From Pseudoalteromonas carrageenovora IAM 12662 (GTDB lineage: Bacteria > Pseudomonadota > Gammaproteobacteria > Enterobacterales > Alteromonadaceae): a stretch of DNA of 64,000 nucleotides. Each line of letters opens with the position of its first letter. Position 1 is the stretch's first letter. Below are positions 1 to 16,373 of the stretch, one piece after another. A program made the position numbers and the translations under genes. The notes beneath the pieces are model-generated. The model was given only the letters and a program-made list of their open reading frames with translations. It did not search any database and was not told the origin of the DNA. Location: assembly GCF_900239935.1 (NCBI RefSeq), contig NZ_LT965929.1, positions 349,001 to 413,000 on the forward strand, read 5' to 3'.

Positions 1-734
1 GTAGTACCAGCGTGACCGCTTTGACCTGTTAGGGTGATCATAGCGCGCTTTGCCCCTGCAATGGCAGTAACAATGCCTAATGCCTGATTTACCGACTCAA
101 GCACGGGGCCTTGCTCTATGTGGGTTTCCCAGTAACCGAGTAACTCATTTTTGTTTAGTGTTGCTTTTGCATAGTTTGCGGGGTTTAGGTCAAAGTCGAG
201 CATGGCTTGGCGCATAGTAATGCCGTTTGTATCTTCTATATTTAACCACTGCGGGTCAAACTCGTTTGCCAGTGCTTTTGAGCCAATTAATGTGGTGGCA
301 AAGCGGGTGCCTTCTTCATCACAAAAACCTACAACATCTAAATGAAACGGTAAATCAAGCTTAAGTGTATTCGCAAGGGCGGCTATTTCAATACCGAGTA
401 ACACTCCTAAAATGCCATCAAATGCACCGGCATTTGGTACGGTGTCGAGGTGTGAGCCAATAATTAAACGTTTAGCGTTTGGGTTTGACGATTTTAGCCG
501 ACCCCATAAATTACCTACTTCGTCTTGCCACGATTGCATGCCCGCCTCAGCCATCCACGCGGCAGTAACGCTATTACACTCTTTGTGCTCTTTAGATAAA
601 TACACGCGGTGAATACCGCCCTGCATTTGCGATAAGCCACTGAGTGTTTTACAGCGCGCTAAGGCGCGCGCAGCATAGGTGTTAGCTAGCTCATTATTTA
701 ATAATGGCGCTAGAGAGGGGGTTGCAATCGTCAT
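1..734 (-). CDS. Allantoate amidohydrolase-like M20 metallohydrolase (3' end cut by window)
   Basis: About 244 N-terminal codons are visible; the rest lies before base 1. The reading shows the M20 binuclear metal site: SHLDT (His about 95), AFDG (Asp about 106) and CDEEGTRF (Glu about 140), followed by ETHIEQGP. This is typical of the allantoate amidohydrolase / N-carbamoyl-L-amino-acid hydrolase group (AllC, HpxK, HyuC). These enzymes release ammonia from ureido compounds in the cytoplasm. The start is the ATG at 732-734, preceded by AAAGGA; it lies 15 bases after the stop of the ureidoglycine-glyoxylate aminotransferase gene, so it is the last visible gene of that operon. That neighbour favours an HpxK/AllC role over beta-ureidopropionase. 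Family is certain; the exact substrate is inferred. Confidence 0.85.
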   Translation of the reverse strand, partial: MTIATPSLAPLLNNELANTYAARALARCKTLSGLSQMQGGIHRVYLSKEHKECNSVTAAWMAEAGMQSWQDEVGNLWGRLKSSNPNAKRLIIGSHLDTVPNAGAFDGILGVLLGIEIAALANTLKLDLPFHLDVVGFCDEEGTRFATTLIGSKALANEFDPQWLNIEDTNGITMRQAMLDFDLNPANYAKATLNKNELLGYWETHIEQGPVLESVNQALGIVTAIAGAKRAMITLTGQSGHAGT

Positions 735-1982: not shown

Positions 1983-2807
1983 TTAGGCTCCCAGAGTCTG
2001 AATAAGCATGCGAATACCCGTTATCATTAAGACAACGGCAAAAGCGCGTTTTAATTGTTTTTGATCCAGCTTGCTACCAATTTTTACGCCAATAGGCGCA
2101 AACAAAATAGTCAGCGGAATAATAAGAAAAAAGGCAGGGAGGTTAACTAACCCCCACGTACCTAGGGGAGCATCGGTTGGCGTTGTGCCAATACTTAATA
2201 AGGTAATTACGCCTGGTAGCGCAATAAGTAAGCCAAATACGGCTGCAGTGCCTACAGCAACATGGGCACGTACGTTAAATGCGTTTAGCATGGGTACACC
2301 AATTGTACCACCGCCTATGCCGATCATGACCGATAAGCCACCAACAATACTTGCCATTATGCCTTGGCCAAATTTACCCGGTAACTTACTTACAAGGGCA
2401 GGGGCGCCGGCTCTAAATAACATGTTAAGGCTAACTAAAATAGCAATACAAGCAAACATAAGTACCAGTGCATTACCGCGTATTGTGTGCGCTAAGTAGC
2501 TGCCTACAACGGCCATTACTAAAATAAACGGCGCCCAGTATTTAATTAAAGCAAGGTCAATGTTGCCCTTTGCATGGTGCGAGCGAATAGACGAAATAGA
2601 CGTAGGCACTATGGTGGCAAGCGATGTCGCGGTTGCTATCATCATGGCCGACTCAGGGCTTACACCAAAACCTTGCAATAAAAAGTACAGCACAGGCACA
2701 ATTACTATGCCGCCGCCTACACCAAATAGGCCTGCTAAAATACCTGCAAAAATGCCGGTTGCTATTAAGGCCACAATAATGGGCCATTGGTTTATTATTT
2801 CTGTCAT
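1983..2807 (-). CDS. TauE/SafE family inner-membrane exporter
   Basis: A 274-residue polytopic protein with the glycine-rich TauE/SafE (DUF81) motifs GLFGVGGGIVIVP near residue 28 and IGIGGGTIGVPML near residue 165, one per half, and about eight hydrophobic segments. Known members export small organic or sulfur anions such as sulfoacetate or sulfite. Its ATG overlaps the stop of the HpxW-like gene by four bases (ATGA), so it is translated with the ureide catabolic enzymes. That position suggests movement of a pathway acid (for example oxalate, oxamate or glyoxylate), but this is an inference; the substrate cannot be read from the sequence. Confidence 0.85.
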   Translation of the reverse strand: MTEIINQWPIIVALIATGIFAGILAGLFGVGGGIVIVPVLYFLLQGFGVSPESAMMIATATSLATIVPTSISSIRSHHAKGNIDLALIKYWAPFILVMAVVGSYLAHTIRGNALVLMFACIAILVSLNMLFRAGAPALVSKLPGKFGQGIMASIVGGLSVMIGIGGGTIGVPMLNAFNVRAHVAVGTAAVFGLLIALPGVITLLSIGTTPTDAPLGTWGLVNLPAFFLIIPLTILFAPIGVKIGSKLDQKQLKRAFAVVLMITGIRMLIQTLGA

Positions 2808-4378
2808 TGTGTTCCTGCTGTAGTTACTGTTGCACGACCATCTGAACGAGGATCGGTTGCTGCTTCAAGGCTGGTAGGCGTATCTAAAATTGCACCCGCG
2901 TGGCCCATCATTTCATTGTTATTATCAACGCTTACCCAGTCGTGGTCACGTTGATTTAATTCATGTTTAATTTTTGAGGCTAGGGTTTGCTCTACTTTTA
3001 AATTAGTGCTGGTGTCGCCCCATGTACGGCCAAGTAACCAGCGCGGGTCGCTCACCGCTTGGTTAATCGATTTATTACGCCACGCGTAACCTGTAAATAC
3101 TGCGGCTTGTGTTTGAGGTTGCCCTTCACCGCCCATGGTGCCGTAGGCAAGGCGCCTGCCATCGTCAAATTTTGCTAAAGCAGGGTTAAGTGTATGAGCC
3201 GGTTTTTTATGCGCTTTTAAGGCATTGGCATCGTTGCTATTTAAACTAAAACTTAAACCGCGGTTATTCCACACAAAGCCACCTTCGCTCATCAAAATGC
3301 CGCTACCAAATTCCCAGTAAACACTTTGAATAAAGCTCACGAGTTGGCCGTTTTTATCACGTGCTGCCATCCAAACGGTATCGCCTGGCTCTGCATTAAA
3401 TGGCCATTGCTTGGCTTGGCTCATATCTATATTGCTGGCAAGCGCATTTAAGCGCTCATCAGTTAGTGCGTTTTTATAATCATCGCCAAGCGCATCTGGG
3501 TCGGCCCAAAGTGTAGGGCGGTGGGTAAAGCTTTGTTTGGTTGCCTCAACAATTAAGTGCATCCAATCAGCCTCTGTTTTGGCTAAATGTTTTAGTTTAT
3601 TAACAGCGCCAATTATTTGCAAAGAATGCACGCCTTGTGTGGGGGCGGGCAAGTTATAACACTGTATGCCCGATAAATTAGCACTGAGCGGCGTTACTAA
3701 ATCGGCCTGAGTATTGGCAATATCTGCGCGTGTAATTGCACTGCCTGCGGCAGCTAAATCGTTTGCAAACGACTCTGCTAACGGCCCTTGGTAAAAAGCG
3801 TTTAAGCCATGCTCGGCTAAGTGCTCAAAGGTATTGGCAAGTTTTGGATTTTTAAAGTGTTGCCCTGCTTGTAAAGGTTTACCGTTGGGGATGTATAGCG
3901 CTTTAAAGGCATCGTTAGTATTGGCAACACTTGCCAGTTTTTCGCAGCCCGCTTGCAGGCTTTTTGTAACAGTAAAACCTTCGCGGGCAAGCTTAATAGC
4001 AGGCGCTAAAATAGTACTTAGTGGCAATGCTGCGTGCTTATCTACCTCAAGTGCTTTTTGCCAGCCACGAAGCGTAGCCGCTTGAGTCAATGCGCTTAAA
4101 CCACCTCGCTCTGGTATGTGTGGCTCATTGCTGTAGGCACTTATGTCACTTGGTGCGCGCCCGCATGCATCAATTGCGGTAGGGTGGCTTTGGTTTGGGT
4201 TATCAATAAGCCAAAAGCTGTCGCCGCCAATCGAGTTCATATGTGGGTAAACCACGCTAATCGCAGCCGCTGCCGCTACCATTGCTTCTGTGGCTGTACC
4301 GCCTTGTTTTAGTATAAAGGTGCCTGCCTCGGTCGCTGAAAAGTGCGGGGCAGTAAATGCAATGTTGTGTGTGCTCAT
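2804..4378 (-). CDS. hpxW: Gamma-glutamyltransferase-like oxamate amidohydrolase (HpxW-like)
   Basis: A 524-residue Ntn-hydrolase of the gamma-glutamyltransferase superfamily. The predicted autocleavage site and nucleophile is Thr about 334 in GDTVWMAARDKNG, giving a large and a small subunit; the typical C-terminal motif GTMGGEGQPQTQ follows. No signal peptide is seen, unlike periplasmic GGT, which favours the cytoplasmic HpxW branch that hydrolyses oxamate in Klebsiella-type purine catabolism. It overlaps the amidase upstream and the TauE gene downstream by four bases each. HpxW function rests on context (ureidoglycine aminotransferase, amidase and allantoate-hydrolase-like enzyme in the same operon). 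An alternative is another GGT-family acylase. Confidence 0.78.
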   Translation of the reverse strand: MSTHNIAFTAPHFSATEAGTFILKQGGTATEAMVAAAAAISVVYPHMNSIGGDSFWLIDNPNQSHPTAIDACGRAPSDISAYSNEPHIPERGGLSALTQAATLRGWQKALEVDKHAALPLSTILAPAIKLAREGFTVTKSLQAGCEKLASVANTNDAFKALYIPNGKPLQAGQHFKNPKLANTFEHLAEHGLNAFYQGPLAESFANDLAAAGSAITRADIANTQADLVTPLSANLSGIQCYNLPAPTQGVHSLQIIGAVNKLKHLAKTEADWMHLIVEATKQSFTHRPTLWADPDALGDDYKNALTDERLNALASNIDMSQAKQWPFNAEPGDTVWMAARDKNGQLVSFIQSVYWEFGSGILMSEGGFVWNNRGLSFSLNSNDANALKAHKKPAHTLNPALAKFDDGRRLAYGTMGGEGQPQTQAAVFTGYAWRNKSINQAVSDPRWLLGRTWGDTSTNLKVEQTLASKIKHELNQRDHDWVSVDNNNEMMGHAGAILDTPTSLEAATDPRSDGRATVTTAGTQ

Positions 4379-5583
4379 GCAGGTGTGTCCTGTTTAAAGT
4401 GTGCAGCTAATTGTTGTACGCAGGCAAGTAGGCTTTTATCGTTGCCGTGGCTCATCATTAATGAAAACCCATATGGGTGGCCATTTTCTAAATTAGCCAA
4501 TGGTAAGTGAACTTGCGCCGAGCGGCTCAAGCCCGCAATGGCAGATAAAGTTATAATTTGCATACGTAAGGCGCTTGTGTTGGTGCCCAATTTAGGTGCG
4601 GTTGTGGGTGTGGTTGGCAAAAATAAACAACTTTTTGTGTTTAGGTTTTTAGTTATTAGTGTTTGCCACTGAGTTTGTACTTTTAGTGCTTCTTGCTCTT
4701 CTTGGGCGGTTAGTGCCAGTGCCATTTTAAAACGTGCCGCAATTGCCGGAGCAAACTGGGGAAGTTGCCCTGGCAATTGAAGCCAATCTTTATGCGTTTT
4801 AGCTATTGCGCGCCCTTGCAATATTCTAAAGCTATCAGCGAGTTCGCTTAATAAGTTGCTATTAGGCAGTTCAAATTCTTTATGGTGCTTAAAATAAGGC
4901 TTGGTTTTTTCAAGTAGTTGCTTAATAGGTGTTTGTAAAGCAGGGCTTACTAGCTCAAATAACGGCTCACAAATTACTAAAGTATCAACGTTATTAATAG
5001 CTTGATTTGGTAACAGTACATTGCCTACATCGCTTAGTAGTTCTGCACTTTGGGTAAGCCAGCCAATGGTATCAAAAGGGGGAGCTAGCGGAATTAGGCC
5101 GTCTTTTTCAATCACGTTATGGCTGGGTCTTATACCAAATAAGCCGCAGTAACTTGCGGGTATTCTAATAGAGCCGCCAGTATCGGTACCTAAGCCAATA
5201 TCGGCTAAGTTAGCAGCAACGGCGGCCGCCGATCCCATACTCGAACCGCCACTTGCATGACCGCTAAGTTTTGGGTTTTGTGCCGCCCCATAGTGAATGT
5301 TATTTCCCTCTAAGCTGTAAGCAAGCTCATCGGTGTGGGTAAAGCCTGTAAAGCTACAACCCTCGTTCATTAACTTATTTACCGCACTTGCTGTTTGCTG
5401 GGCAGGTTTTGCTGCTTTAAACCAATTAGGGTTACCTGCGCTGTTGCGCTCACCTTTAACAGCAAATACATCTTTTACTGCAAGGCGCTTATTGATAAGT
5501 GCGCCGTGGGTGTGTGTTTGCCATGCTTTTGGGCCATGGTCACAAAAAATACCGGTAAAATTATTATGTGTTTTGGTACTCAT
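4375..5583 (-). CDS. Amidase signature family hydrolase (AtzE/HpxY-like)
   Basis: A 402-residue amidase-signature enzyme with the Ser-cisSer-Lys triad visible: Lys37 in LAVKDVFAVKG, cis-Ser114 in GHASGGSSMGSAAAV and nucleophile Ser138 in LGTDTGGSIRIP. It is shorter than the usual 450-470 residues, mainly through a compact C-terminal half. It is the first gene of the ureide operon, directly behind the sigma-54 promoter and a RutR-like dyad described separately. In Klebsiella hpx clusters an AtzE-like amidase (HpxY) accompanies HpxW, so it may act on oxalurate or a related carbamoyl amide. The small partner (HpxX/AtzG-like) was not found here, so the substrate remains inferred. Confidence 0.8.
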   Translation of the reverse strand: MSTKTHNNFTGIFCDHGPKAWQTHTHGALINKRLAVKDVFAVKGERNSAGNPNWFKAAKPAQQTASAVNKLMNEGCSFTGFTHTDELAYSLEGNNIHYGAAQNPKLSGHASGGSSMGSAAAVAANLADIGLGTDTGGSIRIPASYCGLFGIRPSHNVIEKDGLIPLAPPFDTIGWLTQSAELLSDVGNVLLPNQAINNVDTLVICEPLFELVSPALQTPIKQLLEKTKPYFKHHKEFELPNSNLLSELADSFRILQGRAIAKTHKDWLQLPGQLPQFAPAIAARFKMALALTAQEEQEALKVQTQWQTLITKNLNTKSCLFLPTTPTTAPKLGTNTSALRMQIITLSAIAGLSRSAQVHLPLANLENGHPYGFSLMMSHGNDKSLLACVQQLAAHFKQDTPA

Positions 5584-5602
5584 ATCACCACTCGTTATAA
5601 AG

Positions 5603-5634
5603 TAAATCTGACCAACTGGTTATAATCAGATTTA
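5603..5634. promoter_or_regulatory. RutR-like operator inside a 9-bp inverted repeat
   Basis: The arms TAAATCTGA (5603-5611) and TCAGATTTA (5626-5634) are exact reverse complements. Inside lies CTGACCAACTGGTTAT (5608-5623), close to the RutR operator consensus TTGACCANNTGGTCAA. It sits 25-50 bases before the amidase ATG, where a repressor would block elongation or initiation. The RutR-like regulator gene is 0.8 kb upstream. Confidence 0.6.
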
Positions 5635-5757
5635 GGGTGATTAAAAAGACGAATTAATTATTATTATTTTTCAGCTCACTGCGTAACATCTTATTTTTAT
5701 TTTACAGAGCCTGATCCGCTTTTTAATCGGTTAGCTTATTATATTGCCTAAAAGCTA

Positions 5758-5773
5758 AGCAAAAGCAATGCCA
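5758..5773 (-). promoter_or_regulatory. Sigma-54 (-24/-12) promoter
   Basis: The minus strand reads TGGCATTGCTTTTGCT: the invariant GG and GC are separated by exactly ten bases, and both TGGCA and TTGCT match the RpoN consensus TGGCACG-N4-TTGCW. Initiation would be near 5747, giving a leader of about 165 bases before the amidase ATG. Confidence 0.72.
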
Positions 5774-5871
5774 AATACAATAAAGTTGTCCGCTCGGTCA
5801 GGTTTTTATGGGTTTGTATGGTGTTTATAAAAATTTAAGCAATAAAGAGGGCGCAATTTAGAGGTGAAAAT

Positions 5872-5907
5872 ACACCAAGTTGGTGCGTGTTTGCACCATC
5901 TTGGTTG
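5872..5907 (-). promoter_or_regulatory. Two tandem NtrC-like enhancer sites
   Basis: ACACC-AAGTT-GGTGC (5872-5886) and GCACC-ATCTT-GGTTG (5893-5907) match GCACY-N5-RGTGC with one and two mismatches. Their centres are 21 bases apart (two helical turns) and lie about 130 and 155 bases upstream of the predicted sigma-54 start, the usual enhancer distance for NtrC. Confidence 0.6.
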
Positions 5908-5919
5908 TAAGTCGGGGGT

Positions 5920-6402
5920 TTACAATAGTGCGTTTGGGCTAATTATTAAGCCGTTTACATCGGCGTATAACCAATCATTTGGCTTAATTGTGGTGCTAAG
6001 CATAGTTACTGTTTGGTTTTTATCACCAAACCCACGCTTTAAAGTACTACGCGGAGTTGAGCCAAGCGCCATTACGGGTAAATCCATAGTGGCAAGTATT
6101 TCTATATCGCGGCAACAGCCGTTAATAACAACGCCTTCCCAGCCATTTTTTAATGCGCGCTCTGCCATTATATCGCCTATAAAAGCAAAGCGTTTACTGG
6201 CAAAGCCATCAATAACTAATATTTTGCCCTTGCCGTTTTCATGCAGTATATCAGCGGCAAATGAATTGTCTTCTGGGCAGGTAACGGTAACTGCTTGGCC
6301 ACTAAACGTGGTTTTTTTACCAAAATGGCGCAGGCCGCTGTCGGCTACTTGTACGCTCTCGCGGTGATCGTCAAATAAATCGGGGGTTGTAAAGTTATCC
6401 AT
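5920..6402 (-). CDS. RraA-family protein (aldolase/decarboxylase-like fold)
   Basis: A 160-residue protein collinear with RraA: TPDLFDDHRESVQV at the N-terminus, GQAVTVTCPEDN, and GWEGVVINGCCRDIE. Unlike the RNase E inhibitor RraA of E. coli, which has Arg-Gln, this copy keeps the Arg98-Asp99 pair that HMG/CHA-type class II aldolases of the same fold use for metal and substrate binding. It may therefore be an enzyme acting on oxaloacetate-like acids rather than an RNase regulator. It starts 3 bases after the RutR-like gene, so the two form one transcript, and it points toward the ureide operon. Function is unproven; the family is clear. Confidence 0.8.
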   Translation of the reverse strand: MDNFTTPDLFDDHRESVQVADSGLRHFGKKTTFSGQAVTVTCPEDNSFAADILHENGKGKILVIDGFASKRFAFIGDIMAERALKNGWEGVVINGCCRDIEILATMDLPVMALGSTPRSTLKRGFGDKNQTVTMLSTTIKPNDWLYADVNGLIISPNALL

Positions 6403-6405
6403 GGG

Positions 6406-7059
6406 TTAAGCCTCACTTTGCTCGGGTATTTTTAAGCCAATACCTTTTAAAATAATGTGGGCAATTGACTGCGTAATGTGTGCCACATCGGTTTTATCGT
6501 ATTCTAATTTGTTCATAACTAGCAGTACTTCAGCTTGAAAGTCGGCGTAGTATTGTGTGGTTGACCAAATGGTAAATAATAAATGGTAAGGGTCAACGTT
6601 ATCCATTTTATCGGCGTCAATCCATGCTTGAAAAACATCAACCTTTTGCTTTACCCAAGGGCGTGTATTAGTTCTAAAGTAGTTTTGAAGGTACGGTGCA
6701 CCACGCAGTATTTCGCTGGCAAATAAACGCGATTGCAAAGGCTGATTAACGGCAAGTATTACTTTGCTTTTAATGTAGTTATAAAGCACATGAGCAGGGT
6801 CGTCCTCAGGGGTTACATTATCTAGCCCTAAGTTCCAATGCGCTATTATGCGGTCTATTACGGCTTCGTATAGGCCGTCTTTACTTTTAAAGTAATATAA
6901 AATATTGGCTTTAGGCACGCATGCCTCTTTGGCAACCATACTCATGCTAGCGCCATCGTAACCAAGCTGAGAAAACAATTGCTCTGCGGCATCGAGTATT
7001 AACTTTTGGTTTTTCTCTCGGGTGAGTTCTTTTTTATTTGGCTTTGTTTGTGTGGTCAT
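6406..7059 (-). CDS. RutR-like TetR-family transcriptional regulator
   Basis: The preferred start is the ATG at 7057-7059 (MTTQTKPNK), giving 217 residues; a longer reading from 7161 would cover the operator and has no matching family N-terminus. The N-terminal helix-turn-helix runs through AAEQLFSQLGYDGASMSMVAKEACVPKANILYYF in the usual TetR pattern. The C-terminal domain resembles E. coli RutR: QSRLFASEILRGAPYL and LLFTIWSTTQYYADFQAEV align with the RutR ligand domain. RutR senses uracil/thymine and controls pyrimidine and purine catabolism. RutR-type dyads occur 44 bases upstream of this gene and in front of the amidase, so autoregulation and control of the ureide operon are likely. Confidence 0.82.
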   Translation of the reverse strand: MTTQTKPNKKELTREKNQKLILDAAEQLFSQLGYDGASMSMVAKEACVPKANILYYFKSKDGLYEAVIDRIIAHWNLGLDNVTPEDDPAHVLYNYIKSKVILAVNQPLQSRLFASEILRGAPYLQNYFRTNTRPWVKQKVDVFQAWIDADKMDNVDPYHLLFTIWSTTQYYADFQAEVLLVMNKLEYDKTDVAHITQSIAHIILKGIGLKIPEQSEA

Positions 7060-7102
7060 TATGGCGTTGCTGAGTTTAAGGTGTTGATTGATTGTAACTT
7101 TA

Positions 7103-7118
7103 CTGACCGAAAGGTCAA
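7103..7118. promoter_or_regulatory. RutR-like operator between the TetR gene and yddG
   Basis: CTGACCGAAAGGTCAA contains the perfect dyad TGACC-GAAA-GGTCA (7104-7117), with the same half sites and spacing as TTGACCANNTGGTCAA. It lies in the divergent interval, 44 bases from the regulator start, so it fits autorepression and possibly control of the exporter gene. Confidence 0.62.
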
Positions 7119-7224
7119 TTACTAAAATTTGCTTTATTTTATATAAAAGTATTAGTAACAATTGTTTAAGCGCATAATTACTGGTAGCGTACCCCTAAAT
7201 GCAGGTAGTACTTTTAGGTAGTTA

Positions 7225-8145
7225 ATGGGCTTTTTTTCTAATCATAAATATACACTTTATGGCATCGCCGCTATTTTATTATGGAGCTGTTTAGTTGCTT
7301 TGCTGCGTGATGTGTCTGAGTTATTTGGCCCCATTGGTGGTGCTGCGCTTATGTACAGCGTAAGTACACTTTTTTTAATTATGGTAATGGGGCCGCCAAA
7401 ATTAGGTGGTTTTAATAAACGCTATATTATTTGGGGTACTGTTTTATTTGCACTTTATGAGGTGTGTTTGGCGCTGTTTGTGGGGCTGGCTAATAATCGC
7501 CACCAAGCAGTAGAAATGGCCGTTATAAATTACTTATGGCCCACGCTTACTATTTTACTCAGTATTATAGTTAACCGTAGTAAAGTAAGTTTTTGGATTT
7601 ACCCTGGCATGTTGCTCGCCTTTTTTGGTGTAGCGTGGTGTGTTGGCGGTGATAGTGGTTTATCTATTAGTAGTATTACCAACAACTTTGCAAGTAATCC
7701 TACGGCTTATTTATTGGCTTTTGTAGCGCCGTTTATTTGGTCTGTATACTGTGTAATCACTCAAAAAAGCAGTAATGGTAAAAACGCCATAGTGCTGTTT
7801 TTTATAGCCACAGCGTCAAGTTTGTGGGTGCTATATGGTTTAAGTGATGAACCAGCTATGGTGTTTTCAATACATGCAACAATTACGCTTGTTTTAGCAG
7901 GTATAGTGGTAGGCAGTGGTTATGCACTCTGGAACCAAGCAATTATTGGCGGTAACTTAATGCTGCTTGGTACGCTTTCGTATTTTACGCCGGTTTTTTC
8001 GGCTATTATCTCGGCGCTTTATTTATCAATTACCCTTAGTGCCTCATTTTGGCAAGGGGTAATAATGGTAACTGGCGGCTCACTCGTTTGCTATTTTGTA
8101 ACGCGTGAGAAGCCAATTAATAAACAAATAAACCCAGTTAACTAG
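7225..8145 (+). CDS. yddG: YddG-like aromatic amino acid / metabolite exporter (DMT superfamily)
   Basis: A 306-residue ten-helix EamA/DMT transporter. Several blocks follow E. coli YddG closely: IAAILLWSCLVALLRDVSE at the N-terminus, HQAVEMAVINYLWPTLTILL, GVAWCVGGDSGL and SYFTPVFSAIISALYL. YddG exports aromatic amino acids and other compounds across the inner membrane. The gene is divergent from the RutR-like regulator with the RutR-like dyad between them. The TAG stop (8143-8145) is formed by the first bases of the repeat element that follows, so insertion of the element probably fixed the present C-terminus. Confidence 0.85.
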   Translation: MGFFSNHKYTLYGIAAILLWSCLVALLRDVSELFGPIGGAALMYSVSTLFLIMVMGPPKLGGFNKRYIIWGTVLFALYEVCLALFVGLANNRHQAVEMAVINYLWPTLTILLSIIVNRSKVSFWIYPGMLLAFFGVAWCVGGDSGLSISSITNNFASNPTAYLLAFVAPFIWSVYCVITQKSSNGKNAIVLFFIATASSLWVLYGLSDEPAMVFSIHATITLVLAGIVVGSGYALWNQAIIGGNLMLLGTLSYFTPVFSAIISALYLSITLSASFWQGVIMVTGGSLVCYFVTREKPINKQINPVN

Positions 8146-16034: not shown

Positions 16035-16276
16035 TGTCGACCTCGTCTTAATAAAGTGCCGGCAGTGTTGCAGGCTGTTTAACTGTTAACGAGTGTATTA
16101 ACAAAACGATTTTCGGTAAAATTGATTGTTTAGATTGTTGCCATCATAAAATTAGATTGGATGTAGATAGCATTAATCAATTTAATCAATGAAGGGTGAA
16201 ATATTCGACCTTAGTCGTAATTGCATTTTTGAAACCAATGAAAATACAGACTATTTCATAATTAATGAATAAATAT

Positions 16277-16291
16277 TCACCAGTTTGGTGC
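16277..16291. promoter_or_regulatory. Palindrome TCACC-N5-GGTGC upstream of the HAD gene
   Basis: TCACCAGTTTGGTGC is a dyad of CACC/GGTG halves. Read in reverse complement it is GCACCAAACTGGTGA, nearly the same as the second palindrome at 16374. It also resembles an NtrC half-site pair. The regulator is unknown. Confidence 0.4.
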
Positions 16292-16373
16292 GTTTTAACC
16301 TAACAAGATGTTGACTTATTATTACAATAAAGAGAATATGCTCACTTGCTGGGCTTATGCTCAAGTTAAGGTT

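Follow-up and report, generated by a model that had tools for sequence, protein, structure and literature searches.

In front of a ureide operon of Pseudoalteromonas carrageenovora we read a sigma-54 promoter that would be activated by phosphorylated NtrC (NtrC-P) and repressed by a RutR-like TetR regulator, the same regulator probably acting also on the promoters of its own gene and of the xanthine dehydrogenase (xdh) genes, and the NtrC-type sites would serve besides as the terminator of the preceding tetR-rraA genes. For this reading as a whole, drawn from sequence comparison, our probability is roughly 0.7.

The promoter region occupies positions 5584-5919 of the window, that is, of the whole 64,000-nucleotide stretch analysed, and all the genes concerned lie on the minus strand. 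In their order of reading they are the gene of the RutR-like TetR regulator (tetR, 6406-7059, 217 amino acids, with a longer reading frame to 7161), rraA (5920-6402, encoding an RraA-like protein, putatively a 4-hydroxy-4-methyl-2-oxoglutarate aldolase) and, after the intergenic region, an amidase as the first gene of the operon (4375-5583, ATG at 5583), a gamma-glutamyltranspeptidase-like (GGT-like) hydrolase (2804-4378), a TauE/SafE-type exporter recognised by its domain (1983-2807), a class V aminotransferase (750-1979) and the 5' part of an allantoate amidohydrolase gene which continues beyond the window (1-734). The same order is found in the annotation of two Pseudoalteromonas records. 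The aminotransferase is assigned as ureidoglycine-glyoxylate aminotransferase through its solved relative 3nnk (632 bits), which we take to be from Klebsiella; the GGT-like hydrolase, closest to 5hft, presumably the oxamate amidohydrolase HpxW, is a probable HpxW-like oxamate amidohydrolase. As genes for both allantoate amidohydrolase and ureidoglycine aminotransferase are found, the five-gene operon is by its predicted products a set of ureide genes, as an earlier sequence-only reading of this region had proposed. The route likely leads from allantoate through ureidoglycine, oxalurate and oxamate to oxalate with the release of ammonia, its last steps being presumptive, and by family membership the amidase and the GGT-like enzyme are the putative enzymes acting on oxalurate and oxamate.

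The 820-kb contig carrying the window is one of the three contigs of the genome and is presumably the second chromosome of Pseudoalteromonas; in a plasmid collection, the left part of the window is matched only by Pseudoalteromonas records (four, the best at 89.6% over 99%). A scan of 5300-7300 for known RNA families gave CrcZ as its sole match, far under the threshold (13.9 versus 95 bits).

For comparison across species, an amidase orthologue was found in 17 of 108 genus genomes (69-100% identity, one partial), and these genomes together with two named records and two loci of other genera make up a promoter set of 21 loci. At the level of the order, 23 genomes besides our own have an amidase match, 16 of which were fetched. 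The informative loci among them are L136, from another family of the order, and L137, with amidases of 68-69% identity. The remaining 14 (amidase 38-45% identical) keep the order amidase, GGT, (TauE), aminotransferase and AllC, with a TauE match in 12; no tetR or rraA match was found in their fetched stretches, and the ureide-type promoter is absent within 600 bases, some of them having loose single matches.

A predicted sigma-54 promoter with paired NtrC-type sites

The predicted promoter core is TGGCATTGCTTTTGC at 5759-5773 on the minus strand. The exact GG-N10-GC spacing announced for it by the sequence-only reading is indeed present at 5773-5759 (GG at 5772-5771, GC at 5760-5759), and a start predicted to be RpoN-dependent falls at 5747, 12 bases past the GC; the distance to the amidase ATG, given earlier as 185 bases, needs correction, the GG lying 188-189 bases before it. 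The pattern TGGCAYN5TTGC is exact in 20 of the 21 orthologous promoters, including one of the two from other genera. The sole exception is L136, which keeps the TetR operator described below and has neither the -24/-12 element nor the NtrC sites; a loose GG-N10-GC is found there elsewhere only, and its genome encodes rpoN. In an alignment of 18 loci all ten scored positions of the element are invariant, versus 24 of 294 outside the motifs, and the element ranks first among 321 slid positions. When the 336-bp intergenic region was dinucleotide-shuffled 3000 times, the exact pattern arose once. RpoN is encoded by the genome (E 4.7e-72) and was matched in four of five further genomes tested, no match being found in G048, a motif-bearing genome (93% complete, 9% contaminated).

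In the genome as a whole the -24/-12 pattern was matched 12 times (4 on the forward and 8 on the reverse strand), its reversed control 9 times. Such genome-wide counts, both for this element and for the TetR palindrome TGACCN4GGWCA, are near those of the controls and were dropped as evidence by themselves. Since single motifs are not convincingly above chance genome-wide, the case is carried by the combination of the motifs, their place and their conservation.

The two NtrC-like sites, described earlier as 21 bases apart upstream of the start, are borne out: the distal one, ACAACCAAGATGGTGCA at 5892-5908 on the minus strand, is centred at -153 (5900), and the proximal one, CGCACCAACTTGGTGTA at 5871-5887 on the same strand, at -132 (5879), 21 bp from the other. 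The NtrC consensus is of the type GCACCA-N3-TGGTGC, and we rebuilt it as a matrix from the glnA promoters of 17 genomes only, with the ureide promoter excluded (34 sites, 29 distinct; consensus TGCACCAAATTGGTGCA); the script mis-picked the pair of L192, which leaves one wrong site in the matrix. With it the proximal site ranks first and the distal site fourth among the 17-mers of the window, and the two are the sole pair 19-23 bp apart among the four window positions at that score. Shuffling the intergenic region gave a site with at most two mismatches in 1 of 3000 cases and two sites with at most three mismatches in none of 3000; genome-wide, the palindromic pattern at up to two mismatches occurs 139 times versus 80 for the control.

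As for spacing, the picks of the script at glnA give 21 bp between the two sites in 16 of 17 loci; in the 17th it chose another pair, though the alignment shows the usual ones there. Of 20 loci examined at the ureide promoter, 18 have this same 21-bp spacing and two have 22 bp. The centre of the proximal site lies at -130 to -132 in 15 of these 20 loci, at -142/-143 in four and at -119 in one, shifts of about one helical turn which are consistent with the expectation for looping; three of the four loci at -142/-143 share one insertion, and few independent events stand behind this phasing. In the loci L042-L045 the stretch from the predicted start to the amidase ATG is longer by some 60-130 bases.

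Conservation of the GG/GC and GCACC positions, on which the sequence-only reading had staked its case, holds well: 20 of 21 loci have the GG/GC, 20 of 20 the GGTGC of site 1 and 19 of 20 the GCACC of site 2. The outer halves of both sites vary among loci and are poor in L050 and L137, site 1 of L050 ranking only 474 with the glnA-trained matrix. By sliding over the 18-locus alignment, site 1 came first and site 2 11th of 323 positions, a scoring that flatters the NtrC sites because the motif positions were preselected and the variable outermost bases left out. NtrC is encoded (711 bits versus a curated cut-off of 558.6) by a gene downstream of glnA, with a small reading frame and a gene read as ntrB in between. 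Altogether, with RpoN and NtrC both encoded, a glnA-trained matrix picking both sites and the GG/GC conserved, the proposed RpoN/NtrC architecture is supported at the level of sequence.

Two further NtrC-type sites may be recorded. The second-best in the window, TTCACCAGTTTGGTGCG at 16276-16292 (18.1 bits with the glnA matrix), lies between a catalase gene on the minus strand, named from annotated relatives, and a HAD hydrolase gene on the plus strand, and two patterns tried gave no -24/-12 element beside it. The palindrome AGTACCAAGTTGGTGCA at G000:C2:502055-502071 lies upstream of a 160-aa reading frame and also near a gene whose product starts like an exported protein.

Predicted RutR-like operators at the ureide, tetR and xdh promoters

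The suggestion that nitrogen limitation switches on the operon thus has the RpoN/NtrC sequence evidence in its favour; it was incomplete in that an adjoining operator of the RutR-like TetR type had been overlooked. This predicted operator, TGACCGAGCGGACA at 5787-5800 on the minus strand, is centred at about -46. The form TGACCN4GGACA is kept in 21 of 21 loci, 27-28 bp before the -24 GG (27 or 28 in all 20 measured), with ten of ten scored positions invariant and a conservation rank of first among 323 slid positions in the 18-locus alignment; with up to one mismatch allowed, 7 of 3000 shuffles of the intergenic region contained such a palindrome. A weaker TetR-type site, TAACCAGTTGGTCA at 5609-5622 on the minus strand, just 5' of the amidase ATG, is found with at most one mismatch in 8 of the 16 genus loci L035-L050. 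Ahead of tetR itself, TTGACCTTTCGGTCA at 7104-7118 (minus strand) overlies the -35 (TTGACC) of a sigma-70-like tetR-rraA promoter whose -10, TACAAT, ends at 7091, and there all 18 genus loci have TGACCN4GGTCA, from which the two others differ by one mismatch. In a family relative, L140, whose amidase is 42% identical, a perfect TGACCAATTGGTCA stands 82 bases before the amidase; no tetR match was found in its fetched stretch.

Within the genome TGACCN4GGWCA occurs at six places, three of them in the ureide, tetR and xdh promoter regions, one inside the first gene of the ABC transporter operon adjacent to xdh and two elsewhere; with 5 forward and 3 reverse counts versus 4 and 3 it is no commoner than its control. 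The xdh copy, at C2:322553, lies between the divergent xdhA operon and that ABC transporter, which has a Bmp/PnrA-type binding protein. At the xdhA promoter (G000:C2:322533-322566) the operator is found in 16 of 17 loci (once as TAACC), the 17th having masked bases, and a -24/-12-like box, with CTGCA as its -12, in 17 of 17 (once CGGCAT); this box lies 18 bp after the start of the palindrome in all 16 readable loci. No NtrC-like site at up to three mismatches was found from -1000 to +300 in any of the 17, and with this and the CTGCA at -12, nitrogen control of the xdhA promoter is unsupported. The cluster comprises XdhABC and OHCU decarboxylase, followed by guanine deaminase, urate oxidase and PuuE allantoinase, so that by gene content the xdh and ureide clusters jointly cover purine breakdown. 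In fact the same 17 of 108 genus genomes have both the amidase orthologue and an xdhA orthologue (at least 75%), and three further genomes have xdhA matches of 44-47% only.

The ureide operator has GGACA in all 21 loci. GGTCA stands in its place at tetR (18 of 18 genus loci) and at xdh (16 of 16 readable); conserved weakening or asymmetric use is a candidate explanation.

The regulator has a TetR_N domain and a YcdC-like C-terminal domain, its best solved relative is RutR, and among the proteins of the genome it alone is strongly RutR-like (177 bits, the next 39.5). As 177 bits fall short of the 368-bit cut-off of the RutR model TIGR03613, it is called here a RutR-like TetR (TetR_C_3) and not RutR. 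The letters of its operators are to be set beside those of the RutR operator, which we take to be a palindrome of the type TTGACC-N4-GGTCAA. By our own reading of the alignment, the regulator conserves K52 and K62, described in the consulted sections of PMC10891134 as DNA-contacting lysines of RutR. Given an operator that adjoins the -24 box and is found again at other purine promoters, a shortage of nitrogen may not by itself suffice; the copies at the ureide, tetR and xdh promoters suggest that control is probably by nitrogen together with a purine-pathway signal, by analogy with RutR and NtrC at E. coli rutA.

The hairpin behind rraA and the rival readings

As RNA, the two NtrC sites together could form, at 5866-5905 on the minus strand, a hairpin with a 13-bp stem (one mismatch here) and a loop of 6-7 bases, followed by GTATTTT and placed shortly 3' of rraA, a candidate intrinsic terminator of tetR-rraA. 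It might then be held that the palindrome pair is this terminator and nothing else, the sigma-54 promoter, if used, being served by NtrC or another activator from elsewhere, a reading which we consider rather improbable. It draws on the 13-bp stem with at most two mispairs in 19 of 20 loci, on at least five T among the next eight bases in 18 of 20 (the run is mostly interrupted, as in GTGTTTT and TTGTTTT), on the stem start 17-38 bases past the rraA stop in the 17 loci where this is measurable, and on an RNA z-score of -5.5 in the window (-4.4 and -4.1 for two relatives, less well cut). Moreover the outer stem and the T-run are both gone in L050, in whose stretch rraA has no match. Since two identical palindromes yield the stem for free, the middle base of the spacer is the test, and in 14 rows it pairs as GC four times, as CG, UA and UG twice each and as AU once, and is unpaired in three. 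For the two-site stem, paired cells (95.6% versus 92.1% shuffled) and the covariation score (0.134 versus 0.068) were both as high in 0 of 500 shuffles, and pairing inside each NtrC palindrome, that is the two-palindrome structure, has no covariation. However, changed pairs and pair types of the same stem were matched by 67 and 72 of the 500 shuffles, kinship being able to beat this control without any structure, and a consensus terminator scan gave none on the minus strand here. What speaks further against termination alone is that a matrix trained on glnA finds both sites, and at the glnA spacing of 21 bp; as the upstream neighbour of glnA is divergent here, such NtrC pairs exist where no terminator is needed. 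The helical phasing to the -24 box is likewise kept, and the inner half-sites stay in phase both in L137, where the stem is kept and the T-run lost, and in L050.

That another sigma-54 activator binds the tandem sites, with a signal other than nitrogen, seems to us quite improbable: the genome does have 12 places of long activator-type matches among 92 matches, about a dozen proteins, and the outer half-sites differ among loci, yet the matrix giving its best window match here comes from glnA, a standard NtrC target, and the spacing is that of glnA. Very improbable is a ureide operon driven mainly by read-through from the sigma-70-type tetR-rraA promoter with TetR as the sole control; tetR-rraA lies directly upstream with its sigma-70-like promoter under a TetR operator, and in L136 an operator occurs without the -24/-12, but 20 of 21 loci have this element in its exact form, and a candidate terminator stands between. 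The palindrome near -46, finally, could be other than a repressor site, a bound TetR helping there, for instance by bending the loop, or another protein using it, which we judge unlikely. Such a role would fit its place within the NtrC loop, where its distance from -24 is constant, and its conserved, imperfect GGACA half; in the consulted part of PMC4740811, placing TetR sites in synthetic loops led to upregulation as well as quenching. However, a copy of the motif covers the -35 of tetR itself, where a repressor usually sits, and in the sections consulted of PMC10891134 the relative RutR represses rutA-G and rutR, though it is an indirect activator at carAB.

On the preferred reading, NtrC/sigma-54 activation under TetR repression, the NtrC enhancer may simply double as the terminator. 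Since the sites also form a hairpin with a T-rich tail, termination could explain part of their conservation. An NtrC-like site before glnK-amtB (G000:C1:938263-938279), CGCACC-GTGTT-GGTGCG, is likewise a hairpin with eight T behind it and comes after the preceding gene; from this likeness, an overlap of enhancer and terminator may be a habit of the genus.

Proposed mechanism and known systems

Under nitrogen limitation, NtrC-P at -153/-132 would loop to the sigma-54 RNA polymerase at 5759-5773, and transcription would start near 5747. The RutR-like TetR, encoded two genes upstream, would bind the palindrome near -46 on the loop side of the polymerase and block the ureide promoter until released by a presumed purine-pathway metabolite. 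The same protein would repress its own sigma-70-type promoter as well as the -24/-12-like xanthine dehydrogenase promoter, and acting at all three it would coordinate the pathway from purines to ureides. Directly after rraA, the NtrC sites probably fold in RNA as the tetR-rraA terminator. A further idea, which we hold as tentative and on balance doubtful, is that one 40-bp element is NtrC enhancer as DNA and tetR-rraA terminator as RNA, with a repressor in its loop, and that NtrC-P bound there could slow or stop read-in. If true, NtrC-P blocking read-in from tetR-rraA would couple the shut-down of the repressor gene to the activation of its target, and a repressor inside the NtrC/sigma-54 loop would be the natural counterpart of synthetic looping enhancers.

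The prediction is that Pseudoalteromonas taps its purine-ureide nitrogen reserve only if a shortage of nitrogen coincides with a purine-pathway signal, and with predicted operators at its own gene, xdh and the ureide operon, a RutR-like regulator would be assigned to purine catabolism. In the open literature searched no paper joins Pseudoalteromonas and RutR, and the titles and abstract openings of the matches listed do not describe the ureide promoter, which is weak evidence of novelty. The arrangement is of a known kind; as far as this search shows, the combination found on purine ureides is a new detail, as is the enhancer's possible second function. It offers a small natural system in which a repressor within an NtrC loop, and the possible use of one element as both enhancer and terminator, can be tested.

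Among known systems, the glnA promoter of the same Pseudoalteromonas genomes likewise has TGGCAY with GG-N10-GC (17 of 17) and its two NtrC-type sites at the same 21-bp spacing, these being at -118/-97 there and at -153/-132 here. In Klebsiella the hpx clusters for purines and allantoate are nitrogen-regulated, with a specific repressor that is not of the TetR family; the late pathway is shared through the ureidoglycine aminotransferase (3nnk) and the GGT-like hydrolase (5hft), and the Pseudoalteromonas gene set, unlike that of hpx, includes the amidase and TauE. Closer in design is E. coli rutA-G, which according to the consulted sections of PMC10891134 is repressed by RutR, as rutR is, and depends on NtrC, so that such a design is already known there for pyrimidines. 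Like the ureide operon, it is a nucleobase catabolic operon with NtrC dependence and a RutR-family operator, both predicted from sequence in our case. The E. coli genes serve pyrimidines and those of Pseudoalteromonas purines and ureides; moreover rutR and rutA-G are divergent, whereas tetR-rraA lies upstream in the same direction. As for the geometry, the part consulted of PMC4740811 deals with synthetic NtrC/sigma-54 enhancers carrying TetR sites in the loop, for which tolerance to insertions of 10-11 bp was predicted; there too a TetR-family operator stands between tandem NtrC sites and a sigma-54 promoter, but those are engineered glnAp2 constructs, while here the promoter is a natural one with its operator near the -24 box.
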